A stretch of 45,762 bases of DNA from Caryophanales bacterium (GTDB taxonomy: Bacteria > Bacillota_I > Bacilli_A > RF39 > UBA660): NCBI GenBank assembly GCA_016290885.1, contig JAEEVN010000007.1:1-45762 (forward strand), in the 5' to 3' direction. A model generated the notes under the pieces. The model had not been told where the DNA came from. It did not search any database and saw only the letters and a program-made list of their open reading frames with translations. Shown piece after piece: positions 12,962 through 44,459 of the stretch (the first letter of the stretch is position 1; the number at the start of each line of letters is the position of its first letter). Position numbers and translations under genes: made by a program.

Positions 12962-13588
12962 TTATTTTAGCCCTAATATTTTAGAATAGTAATCCTCATA
13001 TACTAATCCTTTTTTTACTACTTTAGTAGCATGTTCTTCTCCAATATATCTATAGTGCCATGGCTCAAATTTATAACCAGTAATTTCTTCAAATCCTTCT
13101 GGATATCTTAATATAAAACCATATTTATGAGCATTATCATGCATCCATTCAATTTCTCCAATATTAGATATATCTTCGTTATAATTACCTTTATAAAAGC
13201 ATGCTATATCCATTGCAAGTCCAGTTTGATGTTCTGAATAACCAGGTCTTGCAACATGTCTTGTTGTTAATAAATAAGCTTGTTTTTTTATTTCTTCTAA
13301 GGACTCTGATGGATATTTTTGAATTAAGTCTTTAGTATATTGCTCTAAAAAGTTTTCAAATACTCTTTGTTGGTGTGCACCACTTCTAAAACCACTATAA
13401 ACATAAATATCATAATCATTGCTCTTAGCGTCATTTCTTAAATCCATTGCATTTCGATATGCTTCTTCTCTTAAATACGCAATATAATTCATTTTTGCAT
13501 TTTGTTCTTTATTACATGCAACTAAATCTGTTGGCACATAATCAACACCTATACTATGAGTTTTATTTACTAATATTAAATTATCCAT
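12962..13588 (-). CDS. VanY-type D,D-carboxypeptidase without signal peptide (copy 1)
   Basis: 208 residues of the peptidase M15B/VanY family. Zinc site SxHxxGxAxD is YSEHQTGLAMD (His120, Asp127), and the second ligand and base are in FEPWHYRYIG (Glu175, His178); substrate-side motif YSGFRSG at 64-70. VanY enzymes trim the terminal D-Ala of peptidoglycan precursors. The protein starts MDNLILVNKTH with no signal peptide or membrane helix, so as annotated it would act in the cytoplasm, which is unusual for VanY and closer in location to VanX dipeptidases. A related gene lies at 43863. Confidence 0.9.
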   Translation of the reverse strand: MDNLILVNKTHSIGVDYVPTDLVACNKEQNAKMNYIAYLREEAYRNAMDLRNDAKSNDYDIYVYSGFRSGAHQQRVFENFLEQYTKDLIQKYPSESLEEIKKQAYLLTTRHVARPGYSEHQTGLAMDIACFYKGNYNEDISNIGEIEWMHDNAHKYGFILRYPEGFEEITGYKFEPWHYRYIGEEHATKVVKKGLVYEDYYSKILGLK

Positions 13589-19144: not shown

Positions 19145-21259
19145 TTAATTATTTTTAATTTCTTCATATTTTTGATCTAGAATAATATCTATATTAATTA
19201 TATTCCCTTTTTCATCTTTATTATAATTATATAAAGATACATATCCATTACCCTGAATATTACATTTGAATCCTGTCATACTGCAATATTTTCTTACCTC
19301 TTTAGAAGATAATCCATATAAATCATTAGTAGAATATTTACCATTTGTTAAAAGTAATACTTTACCATTTATAATACCAGATTCTGGATATTGTTTAATT
19401 ATTTTTTGACCATCTCCTATAATTATATATCCTACCTGATTAACATCAAGTACATTTTTTACATCATCTACTTTTTTATTAATATAATTATCTACATCAT
19501 AAGTAGATTTTTTATTTTCTCTTACATTTGTTAAATTATAATAAGCTTCTAAATCTTTTATTAAAGATTTAACTGAATTTGATAATGGATAACTAGATGG
19601 ACAATCTTGGAATGCTATATAGAATATATATTTAGGATTATCCTTTGGATACATACCTGCGAACGATTTATAGTTTTTATAACTTGATTCATAATATGTT
19701 CCAGTATTTGGATTATATACTTCCGCAGTACCTGTTTTTCCTATAATACTATATCCATCTAAATGGTAATCAGATCCAGTACCTTCATAATTATTAACAA
19801 CAGTATCCATTAAATCTTTTATCTTATTAACTGTTGACATTGAAGCTACTTTAGTACCTTTTTGTTCTTTAGCTTGATATACTACCTTTTTAGTATTTGG
19901 ATCTACTATTTTTTCTACTATTGTAGGATTTAATACATATCCATCATTTGATATAGCAGTTAATGCTTTAATATGTTGAATTGGTGTAGTTGTAATACCT
20001 TGGCCAAATCCTGCAGTAGCAATTTCTACTTCATATTTAAAATCAAGATCCCCTTCAGTTTCACCATTTAATTCTATACCTGTTTTAGAACCAAAACCTA
20101 ATTTCTTTAAATATGCTTTTAATTCATCACCAGTTAAATACTTTTGCATTAAATTAGCAATACCTATATTAGAAGATTGCATATAACCATAATCATATGT
20201 AATAGTACCCCAACCATAAGTATTCCAGTCTTTAATTGTATACTCTCCTATATCCATTGTTCCTGATAAATATGTATCTTGTCCATTATAATTACCTTTT
20301 TCCATAGTAGCCATATAAGTATATGTCTTCATAGTAGAACCAGGTTCAAATGATATAGAAGTTAAAGGATTTAAGTAATTTTCTATATCTTTTATATTAG
20401 GATCAAAACTAGGTTTAGTTGCAGATGCTATTATCTTACCTGTTTTAGCTTCTGCTACTACAAATATTGCAGATGTTGCACCAGATGCTTCAAAATTAGA
20501 ATCAAGTGCTCTTTCTGCCATTAATTGAACATTACTGTCTATAGTTAAATAAACATCATATCCGTCTTCTTTTTCTATTCTAACTTCTGGTATATTAACA
20601 AGTCTATAACCATTTATATCTTGTTGATATGTAAGTGATCCATTAATACCATTTAATTTATCATTATACTTAGATTCAATACCCATTTCTCCAGTCATAT
20701 TACCATCTTCATCTTGTACTACATATCCAAGTATATATGATGCAAAATCTAGATTAGGATAATATCTTTTAGAACTTGCTATAAAATCTATACCAGGTAA
20801 TTTTAATTTTTCAATTGATTCTTTTTGAAGTTCAGTTAATCCCCTTCCACCAGGACCAAGTTCTACTTGATATAATCCATCTTGATCTAATAATTCATAT
20901 ATTCTTTCAGGAGTCATATTAATTAATGGTGATAATTTCTTAGCAGTTTCTTCTTTATCTACTACGTGTCTTGGTTTAGTACTATTTTTACTTCTAGATG
21001 AATCAAGATATGCAATTACTGTATATGAATCAACTGTTTCTGCAAGCACTTCATTATTCTTATCATATATAGATCCTCTTGAAGCATATAATATTTGTTT
21101 TGTAGTATTTCTGTTTTTAGCAAATTCTTTTAAATTAATACCATCTACTTTAGGAGATAAGTTTAAAAATATTATTCTGGCTATAATAACGCAAAATAAA
21201 AGAAATCCACCAATAAATACAAATTTATTCATATGTATCGTATTAATGGATTTCTTCAT
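19145..21259 (-). CDS. Class B penicillin-binding protein with PASTA domain, division type
   Basis: 704 residues. N-terminal membrane helix (about 12-33), dimerisation/pedestal domain beginning RGSIYDKNNEVLAET, then the transpeptidase domain with SxxK at Ser308-Lys311 (EPGSTMK), SxN at 362-364 (SSN) and KTG at 508-510. The C-terminus (about 575-704) holds one clear PASTA repeat (VDDVKNVLDVNQVGYIIIG) and a second PASTA-like repeat. It cross-links septal peptidoglycan (FtsI/Pbp2B type). Position after mraZ-rsmH-ftsL confirms the division role. RBS AAGGAG. Confidence 0.95.
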   Translation of the reverse strand: MKKSINTIHMNKFVFIGGFLLFCVIIARIIFLNLSPKVDGINLKEFAKNRNTTKQILYASRGSIYDKNNEVLAETVDSYTVIAYLDSSRSKNSTKPRHVVDKEETAKKLSPLINMTPERIYELLDQDGLYQVELGPGGRGLTELQKESIEKLKLPGIDFIASSKRYYPNLDFASYILGYVVQDEDGNMTGEMGIESKYNDKLNGINGSLTYQQDINGYRLVNIPEVRIEKEDGYDVYLTIDSNVQLMAERALDSNFEASGATSAIFVVAEAKTGKIIASATKPSFDPNIKDIENYLNPLTSISFEPGSTMKTYTYMATMEKGNYNGQDTYLSGTMDIGEYTIKDWNTYGWGTITYDYGYMQSSNIGIANLMQKYLTGDELKAYLKKLGFGSKTGIELNGETEGDLDFKYEVEIATAGFGQGITTTPIQHIKALTAISNDGYVLNPTIVEKIVDPNTKKVVYQAKEQKGTKVASMSTVNKIKDLMDTVVNNYEGTGSDYHLDGYSIIGKTGTAEVYNPNTGTYYESSYKNYKSFAGMYPKDNPKYIFYIAFQDCPSSYPLSNSVKSLIKDLEAYYNLTNVRENKKSTYDVDNYINKKVDDVKNVLDVNQVGYIIIGDGQKIIKQYPESGIINGKVLLLTNGKYSTNDLYGLSSKEVRKYCSMTGFKCNIQGNGYVSLYNYNKDEKGNIINIDIILDQKYEEIKNN

Positions 21260-37819: not shown

Positions 37820-37846
37820 AAAAAAATAGAGTAAAAACTCTATTTT
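37820..37846 (-). terminator. Terminator of yneF
   Basis: Ten-pair stem AAAATAGAGT/ACTCTATTTT with four-base loop and minus-strand T run. Confidence 0.85.
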
Positions 37847-38049
37847 ATATTGTTCATTGCCTTCATCATTTGATTAACTTGTTTTTGAGTTGGTGTTCTA
37901 CCCATTTGACTCATCATAACTTTAATCATTTGTTCATTTATAGGTGGATTTTTCTTTAAATATCTTTGCATAAAGAATTTAGCTAGAAAGAATCCAATTA
38001 CTGCTCCTGCTAATAGACCAAGGCCCACCATTAATAAATCGTGTAACAT
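37840..38049 (-). CDS. yneF: YneF family (UPF0154) small membrane protein
   Basis: 69 residues. One N-terminal membrane helix (about 5-25, [20 protein letters not shown]) followed by [30 protein letters not shown], the UPF0154 signature. The ATG at 38049 fits the GGAGGG spacing better than the ATG two codons earlier, which touches it. Function unknown. As in Bacillus, it is next to a tkt homologue and near lexA. Confidence 0.93.
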
Positions 38050-38068
38050 TAACATCCCTCCATAATTA

Positions 38069-38097
38069 ATTATAATAAAAAAGTTTACTTAAGTAAA
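38069..38097 (-). promoter_or_regulatory. Probable promoter of yneF
   Basis: Minus-strand -35 TTTACT (38097-38092), 17-base spacer, -10 TATAAT (38074-38069), overlapping the preceding terminator. Confidence 0.55.
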
Positions 38098-38099
38098 CT
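38077..38099 (-). terminator. Terminator of the transketolase-like gene
   Basis: Palindrome GTTTACTTAAGTAAAC followed by six T on the minus strand; the stop codon lies within it. Confidence 0.8.
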
Positions 38100-40076
38100 C
38101 TTTATTTTTGTAATCATAGTATTTAAATCTAAATTCATATATTTAAGTACATCATCTTTAGAAGCACAAATACCAAATTTATTAATCGTAAATAAATAAT
38201 TTGAACTAGGTACAAATTTTTCAAATCCAAAACTACTACCATATTCTATTACGAATATAGGTACATTTTTTGGGAATAATTCTTGTTTATAAGATTCAGG
38301 TTGTAGATTATATAATTCCATACATGGCATACTTACAACTCTAGAATCTATACCATCTTGTAATAATTTAGCTTGTATTGATTTAGCTACTTGTACTTCT
38401 GCTCCTGTTGCAAGTAATACAAGTGATGCTATTGCTTTTTCTTTTCCTGCTATGTAAGCACCTTTTAAAACTCCTTCTTTAGAAGTTCCTTGTTCTGCTT
38501 TTATTTCAGTCTTTGGAAGTGATATAACTGCAGGTACTTTATTAGATAATATTATATTCCATGTTCCTATAACTTCTTTTTTATCAGCAGGTCTAAACAC
38601 ATACAAATTAGGTATTGATCTTAACATAGCTAATTCGCTTATAGGTTGATTAACTGGTCCATCATTACCTACTGTAACTGAATCATGTGTAAATATATAT
38701 GTTACTGGTAAATTCATTAATGCACTCATCTTAATAGATGGTATAAGCTTACTAGAATAAGCCATATGTGTTGATGCAAATGGTCTAAATCCTGATATAG
38801 CAAGACCATTCATAGCACTACCCATTAATGCATTTCTTCCACCAAACATTATATTCTTTCCTAATAAATTATTTGGTAATAAATCTCCCATATTATCTAA
38901 ATATGTTTTAGTAGAGCTAGATAAATTAGCACTGCCTCCAATAAAATTACTTACATTATTAGATATAATATTCATTATTTTATGATTACTATCTCTTAAT
39001 AATTCTTTATTTTCATAATCAATAGGAATATCTATTGCAGCTAAATTGAAATCTACATTATTTACAGGAATATTACTTAATTCTTTTAATTGTTCTTCAG
39101 AAAGAATTGATTTATATTCATTAAATGTTTTCTTCCATTCATCATATATTTTATTTCCTCTAGCAACGACTTGATCTCTCATATATGAAGCTGGTTCTTT
39201 TAATATTGTAAATGGTATTGTTCCTGCTCCTGTTTTCTTTTTATATTCATCTAAATCTGCTTTTGGAATAGGATCAGTAAATACTAAATTAGTTCCTTGG
39301 TTATTTAAACCATCTCCTAAAATAGATTTAACCATTATTATTGTAGGATGATTAATATCTTGTTTTGCTTTTTTTATAGCATTAGATATCTCTGATACTG
39401 AATTACCATTCTTTACAGTAACAGTACTCCATCCTAATGCAGAGAATCTAGATAATGTATTATCATAGAAACTATTTTTAATAGGGCCATCTCTTGTTAT
39501 TCCAGTAGAATCCCAAAGTACTATTAATTTTCCAAGTCCATAACTACCTGCAAAAGATGCTGCTTCATAATTAAGCCCATCCATTATTTCTTCATCATCT
39601 ATAAGTACATAAGTATAATAATCTATTAATTTAGGAAGTTTAGTTTTATCAAAAAGACCTTTTGATTTATAATTATATCTTTCTTCATATATTTTTTCTG
39701 CTAATGCAATACCTGTAGCAGATGCAAATCCTTCAGAAGGAAAACCTGTTGATATATCAATACCAGGTGTACCTATTGTTGCAGTTGCAGGAAGTTTACT
39801 ATTTAATTTTCTATATGATTTTAAATCATCTATCATAAGCGGATATCCGCATAAAAACATTGTTGCATATAATACTTCTGCAGCATTTCCTGAACTAAGA
39901 ACAAACCTATCTCTGTTAATCCAATCACTAGTAGATGGATTAATATTTAAATATTTAGTAAATAATGTATATAGAATTGGTGCAGATGACATACTAATAC
40001 CAGGATGTCCTGCTCCTGTATTAGTAATCATATCAAGTGCTAAATTTCTAATAACATTAATAGCTTTTTGATCCAT
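38085..40076 (-). CDS. Transketolase homologue with degenerate active site
   Basis: 663 residues, full transketolase length and domain order (PP, Pyr, C-terminal), in the same place as Bacillus tkt (lexA side, before yneF). AGHPG (His24) is kept. Comparison with the known E. coli enzyme shows losses at most active-site positions: the His of SxGHGS is Asn64; the His of PGHPE is gone (KLPATATIG); the ThDP motif GDG reads DDE (160-162) and its partner Asn is Thr191; the His in the GTHxxHG loop is absent ([11 protein letters not shown]); SADL is SANL (Asn384); the catalytic Glu of VREHAM is Asn415 (GGRNALM); the His of DGPTHQP is Asn476. The frame is intact, with RBS AGGGAG. Normal ThDP chemistry looks unlikely; it may be a pseudoenzyme or have another role. 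Confidence 0.9.
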
Positions 40077-40117: not shown

Positions 40118-40143
40118 AAAAATATAAAATAAATAAATACAAA

Positions 40144-40167
40144 ATAAAAAAACTATATAAATAGTTT
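40144..40167 (-). terminator. Terminator of the 49-residue SOS-type gene
   Basis: Seven-pair stem AAACTAT/ATAGTTT with four-base loop and T run on the minus strand, right after the stop at 40169. Confidence 0.75.
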
Positions 40168-40168
40168 C

Positions 40169-40318
40169 TTATTCATAGCTAGATACAGTACTATAATTAG
40201 TTGCTACCGAGGTATTAGCAATAGATTCCTTTTCTATTTCATTAACTCTAAGTACTAGTGTTAATACAAAGATAACCCCAATTAAATAAACTAAAACTAA
40301 TTCTAATTTTCTTTTCAT
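40169..40318 (-). CDS. 49-residue membrane peptide, YneA-like by position, SOS-controlled
   Basis: Short frame from ATG 40318 to TAA 40169, preceded by GAGGTGAGAGGT. The peptide has a basic tip (MKRKLEL), one membrane helix (about 7-25, VLVYLIGVIFVLTLVLRV) and a Ser/Thr-rich outer tail ending STVSSYE. It faces lexA, has its own terminator, and its promoter carries a LexA box in the spacer. In Bacillus the gene divergent from lexA, upstream of tkt and yneF, is yneA, an SOS-induced division inhibitor with the same topology (one helix plus outer domain). The LysM domain of YneA is absent here. Function is inferred from position, topology and the LexA box. Confidence 0.75.
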   Translation of the reverse strand: MKRKLELVLVYLIGVIFVLTLVLRVNEIEKESIANTSVATNYSTVSSYE

Positions 40319-40338
40319 ACCTCTCACCTCTTGATTAC

Positions 40339-40368
40339 ATTTTAATACCGAACAAGTGTACGTGTCAA
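40339..40368 (-). promoter_or_regulatory. LexA-controlled promoter of the 49-residue gene
   Basis: Minus-strand -35 TTGACA (40368-40363), 18-base spacer, -10 TAAAAT (40344-40339). The LexA box fills the spacer. Confidence 0.75.
40349..40362. promoter_or_regulatory. LexA (SOS) box CGAACAAGTGTACG
   Basis: Matches the Firmicute consensus CGAAC-N4-GTTCG with one mismatch in the right arm. It lies between the -35 and -10 boxes of the minus-strand promoter and about 35 bases upstream of the lexA -35 box. Confidence 0.8.
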
Positions 40369-40397
40369 TTAATTTAATTAAATTTCATACATTTGTT

Positions 40398-40426
40398 TGA
40401 CATAGTGTAAAATATGTGTTATTATT
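40398..40426 (+). promoter_or_regulatory. Promoter of lexA
   Basis: Consensus -35 TTGACA (40398-40403), 17-base spacer, -10 TATTAT (40421-40426). No second clear LexA box overlaps it. Confidence 0.8.
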
Positions 40427-40448: not shown

Positions 40449-41060
40449 ATGGAAACATTAACTAAGAAACAAGAACTAGTATTAGATTTTCTAAAGAAAA
40501 GTATTGCAAAGAATGGATACCCACCTACTGTAAGAGAAATATGTAAGGCTCTTGGTTTATCATCCCCTGCGACTGTACAAAGTCATTTAAATGCATTAGA
40601 AGAAAAGAAATATATTAAAAAAGGTGATTCAAAAAATAGAGCTATCGAATTATTAGTAGAAAATGAATTTGAAGAAAAAGAAGTAATTGATGTTCCACTA
40701 CTTGGAACTGTAACTGCAGGTACTCCAATTGAAGCAATTGAAATGCCTGATGAATTCTTTACATTACCTGCATATTTAATTCCAAATAAAAAAGAAGTAT
40801 TTACTTTAAAAGTAGATGGTACTTCTATGATCAATGTAGGAATTAATAGTGGAGATATAGTTATTGTTCAAAGACAAGAAACTGCTAATAATGGAGATAT
40901 TGTTGTAGCAATGACTGATGAACATGAAGTTACACTTAAAACATATTATAAAGAAGATGGATATTTTAGATTACAACCTGAAAATGACACTATGGCTCCA
41001 ATTATATTAGATAGAGTTTATATAGTTGGTAAAGCTATAGGATTATATAGAAAATTATAA
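40449..41060 (+). CDS. lexA: LexA repressor
   Basis: 203 residues. N-terminal winged helix (about 1-65, PPTVREICKALGLSSPATVQSHLNAL is the recognition region), cleavage site Ala90-Gly91 (VTAGTP), and S24 peptidase-like dyad Ser126 (DGTSMINVG) and Lys164 (VTLKTYY). It represses SOS genes and self-cleaves when stimulated by RecA filaments. RBS AAAGGAGG. Divergent from the 49-residue membrane peptide. Confidence 0.98.
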   Translation: METLTKKQELVLDFLKKSIAKNGYPPTVREICKALGLSSPATVQSHLNALEEKKYIKKGDSKNRAIELLVENEFEEKEVIDVPLLGTVTAGTPIEAIEMPDEFFTLPAYLIPNKKEVFTLKVDGTSMINVGINSGDIVIVQRQETANNGDIVVAMTDEHEVTLKTYYKEDGYFRLQPENDTMAPIILDRVYIVGKAIGLYRKL

Positions 41061-43832: not shown

Positions 43833-43864
43833 AAAAAAAGAATTATCATTACGATAATTCTTTT
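43833..43864 (-). terminator. Terminator of the second VanY-type gene
   Basis: Twelve-pair stem AAAAGAATTATC/GATAATTCTTTT with five-base loop and T run on the minus strand. Confidence 0.85.
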
Positions 43865-44459
43865 AAAGTTTAAATCCTTTTTTAGATTTTAACTGTACTA
43901 CTTCTTCTAATGCTAATCCTGTTTCATGTATTTCTTTTGCTAAATCTAAGCCAACAAATCTAAAATGCCATGGTTCATACACATATCCTGTAACTTGTTC
44001 TTTACCTTTTGGATATCTTAATATAAAACCATATTTGTAGCTATTTTCAATTAATTCTTTTATTTCTGGTTCTTCTCCAGTAATATCATCAGTATATTCA
44101 CCATCAACAATCATTGCAACATCAATAGCAAGTCCTGTATGATGTTCTGATGATCTTGGAGGAGCAACATAAGTATAAGCTTTTTCTCCATCTTGAGCAT
44201 AATAATATTTTAACAATCTCTCTTGTCTTTCTACTGATCTATAACCACTATCAGGTATTATCTTATTATTATGTAGACTATTAAAATCACCAACCATTTT
44301 ATTAAACCAAAGTGCTGCTGTTTCTTCTAATAGTATCTCATTAGTTTCACCCTCAAATGATATAGTTGGATGAGTATTTATCCCAACAGCTATTAATTTC
44401 TTTGGTAATTCATCATCTGTAATTAGTCTTTCTTTATTAATTATAATTCCATAATCCAT
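43863..44459 (-). CDS. VanY-type D,D-carboxypeptidase without signal peptide (copy 2)
   Basis: 198 residues, paralogue of the 12962 gene. Motifs: DSGYRSVERQ (70-79), SEHHTGLAIDV (His106, Asp113) and YEPWHFRFVG (Glu162, His165), followed by the same KYGFILRYP context. The N-terminus MDYGIIINKERLI has no export signal. The first 60 residues differ strongly from copy 1, so it is an old duplication or a separate acquisition. Probably a metallo-D,D-peptidase acting on D-Ala-D-Ala containing substrates; cellular location is unclear. RBS GAGGTGA. Confidence 0.88.
   Translation of the reverse strand: MDYGIIINKERLITDDELPKKLIAVGINTHPTISFEGETNEILLEETAALWFNKMVGDFNSLHNNKIIPDSGYRSVERQERLLKYYYAQDGEKAYTYVAPPRSSEHHTGLAIDVAMIVDGEYTDDITGEEPEIKELIENSYKYGFILRYPKGKEQVTGYVYEPWHFRFVGLDLAKEIHETGLALEEVVQLKSKKGFKL

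Follow-up and report, generated by a model that had tools for sequence, protein, structure and literature searches.

A single-helix membrane peptide encoded divergently from lexA, a candidate SOS division inhibitor in a family of Bacilli

The short frame divergent from lexA in the analysed window (45,762 nucleotides, part of a 1.11 Mb genome in 52 contigs) is a conserved gene with a LexA box in its promoter, and by analogy with YneA and SosA its product is probably an SOS-induced inhibitor of cell division that works as they do, reduced to a single helix with some 20 residues of outer tail. An effect on division is most likely, judging from the locus, the topology of the peptide and the presence of the proposed target.

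The peptide gene and its conservation at the lexA locus

The features of the locus are collected in Table 1. The original prediction described a frame with a good ribosome-binding site, a LexA box in the spacer of its promoter and a terminator of its own, and all three elements were recovered, with a hairpin and T run kept at the terminator position by relatives in the genus. The consensus terminator scan, which demands three G-C pairs, did not list this hairpin. The LexA box is placed directly after the -35 element and the -10 element ends about 20 nucleotides before the ATG; an in-frame GTG at 40327 would, as an alternative start, make the peptide 52 residues long. The predicted gene order lexA, peptide, transketolase homologue, yneF also holds, the neighbours having been identified by profile, with LexA matching TIGR00498 at 218 bits against a cut-off of 111 and also matching PF00717 and PF01726.

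Table 1. Coordinates of the features discussed, numbered along the window
Feature	Position	Strand	Basis
ORF of the 49-residue single-pass membrane peptide MKRKLELVLVYLIGVIFVLTLVLRVNEIEKESIANTSVATNYSTVSSYE	40169..40318	-	ATG start, conservation, dN/dS, AF2 helix
Ribosome-binding site AGAGGTGAG	40323..40331	-	Read from sequence; relatives keep GAGGTGAG
Peptide promoter, TTGACA 40368-40363, 18-nt spacer, TAAAAT 40344-40339	40339..40368	-	11/12 consensus matches
LexA (SOS) box CGTACACTTGTTCG, within the spacer between TTGACA and TAAAAT	40349..40362	-	11/12 to family consensus CGAACANNTGTTCG
Second LexA box CATACATTTGTTTG, overlapping the lexA -35	40386..40399	+	Sequence
lexA promoter, TTGACA 40397-40402, TATTAT 40420-40425	40397..40425	+	Sequence
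GC-poor hairpin then T tract, probably terminating the peptide gene	40141..40168	-	z -2.75; relatives in the genus have comparable hairpins
lexA repressor gene	40449..41060	+	TIGR00498, PF00717, PF01726
Homologue of transketolase that has lost its catalytic residues; lies downstream of the peptide gene	38085..40076	-	Profile and residue comparison
yneF (UPF0154)	37840..38055	-	Profile
Class B penicillin-binding protein, close to rsmH and a candidate for the septal transpeptidase that partners the proposed target	19145..21259	-	PF00905, 1.3e-68

Conservation beside lexA was surveyed in the family, a large one of uncultured bacteria that probably corresponds to UBA660 in GTDB (order RF39, class Bacilli). 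From each genus one genome was taken (145 searched, 132 with a LexA match), and with the genomes of the window's own genus added the readable lexA loci numbered 118, 12 of them from that genus and 106 from the rest of the family. Each of the 12 genus genomes has the peptide at the lexA locus, together with its box, promoter, ribosome-binding site and helix. Searching with a profile built from these copies recovers it at that locus in every genome (E 1e-15 to 3e-22), the other matches of the profile being far weaker and inside larger frames, and it is therefore a conserved gene and not merely an open frame. The peptide is single-copy. At the family loci an automatic caller was applied first, and the seven box-bearing loci without a call were then read by eye, a second LexA box being accepted at 9 or more of 12 matches to the consensus CGAACANNTGTTCG. 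The caller placed the peptide at 93 loci, all with the second box, and the box at 7 of the 25 others (Fisher p 6e-16, a statistic that ignores relatedness), and reading by eye found four real peptides (L071, L085, L097 and L120) and one broken copy among the seven. Both steps together give the peptide at 97 of the 118 loci, with the second box at 97 of these 97 against a candidate box at 3 of the 21 loci without a peptide. A further 17 family loci comprise 10 with the peptide, one with a copy of 24 residues and 6 without. Some genera manage without the peptide, which is missing from about 18% of loci.

The peptide sequence evolves fast, with 22-63% identity within the genus. Values of dN/dS, taken for close pairs only and saturated beyond them, are 0 to 0.33 in the closest pairs, the 0.33 being that of the window peptide against its nearest relative. 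Short frames are common in AT-rich DNA, and the frame could have been a chance one or else the leader peptide of the transketolase gene. That reading is vanishingly improbable, the chance frame being excluded and the leader already refuted by the conservation: 97 of 118 loci share the promoter, box, ribosome-binding site and helix, dN/dS is low in close pairs, and a hairpin follows the stop codon. The peptide is also retained where the next gene differs, and it is therefore not the leader of one operon.

The transketolase homologue itself is full-length with its catalytic and cofactor residues gone (GHGS to GNAA, PGH to PAT, GDG-type to DDE, VHG to VFT, REH to RNA and GPTHQP to GPVNQP), and relatives in other genera retain most of these residues. 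Its dN/dS to L180 is 0.18, so that the homologue seems to be kept by selection as a non-enzyme.

Control by LexA

The proposal that the peptide is under SOS control is supported by sequence, with LexA presumably binding the box that lies in the promoter and is kept at every peptide locus. The window contains a single copy of the 20-mer made up of the -35 element and the box, shuffled sequences contain none with up to 3 mismatches allowed, and TTGACA or TTGACG abuts the box at 84 of 93 family loci. The box is judged real because of its position and conservation, not because of its rarity. The number of LexA boxes was rejected as evidence in itself: at 2 mismatches the window holds 14 against 10.9 expected, and genome-wide the one-mismatch matches are fewer than those of a reversed-pattern control. 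Perfect RAACANNTGTTY matches in the genome of the window were likewise set aside, only the one at recA lying upstream of a gene and the rest lying inside frames or at contig ends. The tighter pattern CRWACANNTGTWYG gives 2-7 sites per genus genome versus 0-1 for its reversed control, a few of them inside frames and probably due to chance. Across the genus, LexA-box sites precede lexA, the peptide gene, recA (about 66-71 nucleotides upstream), two kinds of Y-family polymerase (22-34 nucleotides before the start) and, in one genome, ruvA. The two polymerases with LexA boxes are different proteins, each carried by different species of the genus (L221, L223, L228 and L248 versus L241, L243, L245 and L251). 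Our literature search found no work on SOS in RF39 or UBA660.

Architecture and comparison with known SOS division inhibitors

Every protein library searched missed the peptide, in line with its description as unannotated: it has no match in Pfam, NCBIfam or PHROGs, PDB sequences gave nothing meaningful, and no sequence relation to a characterised family was detectable in these sets. The topology ascribed to it, that of YneA, was borne out by hydropathy, the charge rule and the AF2 helix, which agree on one N-terminal transmembrane helix and an outer C-terminus, and no LysM domain is present in its 49 residues, with no Pfam or NCBIfam match. The called set has a median length of 47 residues (range 34-58), a mean net charge of +1.7 on the N-side and -0.9 on the C-side of the single transmembrane helix, which gives an N-in/C-out orientation by the charge rule, and a 17-residue helix core devoid of charge in 83 of 93 copies. 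For the window peptide, AF2 predicts a single helix over residues 2-43, confident for residues 1-30 and uncertain beyond. An aromatic residue stands at +5 from a lysine at the helix start (K-x4-aromatic) in 55% of copies. Most copies keep an outer tail of about 20 residues after the helix. It includes a recurring charged juxtamembrane stretch that commonly resembles R-V-E-x-L-E (46 of 93 copies fit a loose version of this motif), and it often ends with a beta-branched pair, then N and K.

TisB and DinQ of E. coli are likewise small, LexA-controlled and built of one helix (PMC8145889, PMC3567139), and the peptide could in principle be an SOS-induced membrane toxin of their kind, depolarising the membrane and leaving cells dormant with the divisome not blocked. 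Several features make this unlikely. The uncharged helix core and the clear difference in charge between the helix ends are as expected for a common single-pass protein anchored in the membrane. At the level of sequence, the promoter scan gave no strong promoter antisense to the frame, and the short distance from the -10 element to the ATG suggests little room for a long structured leader. The peptide is, moreover, found family-wide at one chromosomal site, a locus other than that of TisB and DinQ and the one occupied by known division inhibitors.

Among these, YneA, SosA, ChiZ and DivS adjoin lexA (PMC6851548), and YneA, SosA and others at the same position have one transmembrane helix and an outer C-terminus and block division (PMC6851548; PMC13396833). 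The peptide resembles YneA of Bacillus subtilis in being divergent from lexA, between lexA and tkt/yneF, in having a LexA box site in its promoter and in its one helix with N-in/C-out orientation, whereas it has neither a LysM domain nor room for one. The lysine with an aromatic five residues on at the helix start recalls K5 and F10, both of which are required for YneA, a likeness that is a lead only. YneA binds FtsW TM7 via its helix and needs LysM to inhibit, the helix alone reaching midcell in B. subtilis without inhibition (PMC13396833). With SosA of Staphylococcus aureus the peptide shares its divergence from lexA, the LexA box, one helix, an outer C-terminus, the absence of LysM, residues conserved immediately beyond the membrane and a degree of far C-terminal conservation; the comparison is one of layout. 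In SosA the residues that matter are Y40/E41 and D44/H45. SosA has 77 residues, in contrast to 49 here (family median 47), about two thirds the length. Although it has no LysM, SosA requires membrane-proximal outer residues, and removal of its last 10 residues makes it stronger (PMC6851548). SidA of Caulobacter, an SOS protein of only 29 residues that acts on FtsW, has one helix and no domain for wall binding (PMC4211646), and its size is matched by the copies at L085, L097 and L172 (24-28 residues); it comes from another phylum, however, and the window peptide with its outer tail is more than a helix. YneA, SosA and SidA are all predicted to lie at FtsW TM7 (PMC13396833, PMC6851548).

For the window copy, the suggested action by the helix alone is doubtful, since most copies keep the tail and both YneA and SosA need more than a helix, but it survives for the near helix-only copies at L085, L097 and L172, all of which lie behind LexA-box promoters. 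That a near-bare helix of 24-50 residues runs the DNA-damage division checkpoint throughout this family of bacteria with reduced genomes, shutting the septal SEDS polymerase by helix-helix contact, is a tentative idea that we are inclined to doubt; if true, a large outer domain such as LysM would be dispensable for stopping FtsW. The genome that carries L172 (G135) has no SEDS match, and this copy may be decaying or the genome may be incomplete.

Short peptides were also seen outside the family. In another family of the class (L148-L150) a membrane peptide of about 57 residues without LysM is divergent from lexA with LexA boxes, and by eye a ynzC-like frame is next, an order of lexA, peptide and ynzC that recalls the Bacillus locus. 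Short peptides without LysM and with LexA boxes occupy the yneA position in Aquibacillus (about 30 residues) and Shouchella (59 residues) (loci L199, L200 and L201), where a yneB-like recombinase follows. Small forms without LysM may be common in Bacilli.

Proposed mechanism and significance

In the proposed mechanism, LexA on the spacer box would keep the peptide gene off. LexA is cleaved in a RecA-driven reaction after DNA damage, as is general for the SOS response, and this would free the peptide promoter. The peptide would be inserted N-in/C-out, as predicted by the charge rule, and its helix may dock on the septal wall polymerase FtsW, where the juxtamembrane outer stretch would stop septal wall synthesis by FtsW/PBP2B and division would wait for repair. 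An outer protease of the S41/CtpA type probably removes the peptide by way of its C-terminal tail. The regulatory links of this mechanism rest on sequence and the remaining steps on analogy.

The genome of the window encodes FtsZ, two transpeptidase penicillin-binding proteins (the one in the window has rsmH as a neighbour and a PASTA region, recognised by eye), one S41 protease that has a hydrophobic segment at its N-terminus, and one SEDS protein (L254) that scores 261 bits for FtsW versus 246 for RodA. Its assignment to FtsW rather than RodA is only a lean, because the score is below both curated cut-offs. SEDS proteins are found in 143 of 145 family genomes, and most RF39 are predicted to be walled (PMC10868615). 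CtpA, of the same type as the S41 protease here, helps to remove YneA (PMC6051672). A single SEDS protein is present in the two genomes of the genus that were checked, most of the family shows three matches, and RodA seems to have been lost. Two frames of the VanY-like D-Ala-D-Ala carboxypeptidase type were recognised by eye in the window, although the genome is a reduced one, at 12962-13588 and 43863-44459, both on the minus strand.

Larger membrane proteins are often modulated by small partners that cross the membrane once; the sequence of the peptide does not in itself name such a partner, and it evolves fast within the genus. The peptide could be an SOS-induced regulator of another envelope target (transporter, protease or membrane enzyme) that leaves division without any direct effect from it. 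We know of no SOS gene of other envelope function next to lexA, and we hold this reading to be quite improbable, as the lexA-adjacent position is common to YneA, SosA, ChiZ and DivS, all of them division inhibitors (PMC6851548).

Division inhibitors induced by SOS are a kind of system already known, and the family-wide peptide set is new to the libraries searched and the literature found. Only a handful of cultured bacteria have yielded such inhibitors, whose rapid evolution defeats homology detection; here, the locus and the LexA box led to about 100 natural versions within a single family, the smallest of them nearly helix-only. The set provides test material for the recent proposal that such inhibitors act on FtsW TM7 (PMC13396833). 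If the peptide is indeed a division inhibitor, a division checkpoint would be one of the few SOS functions that a genome of about 1.1 Mb retains.
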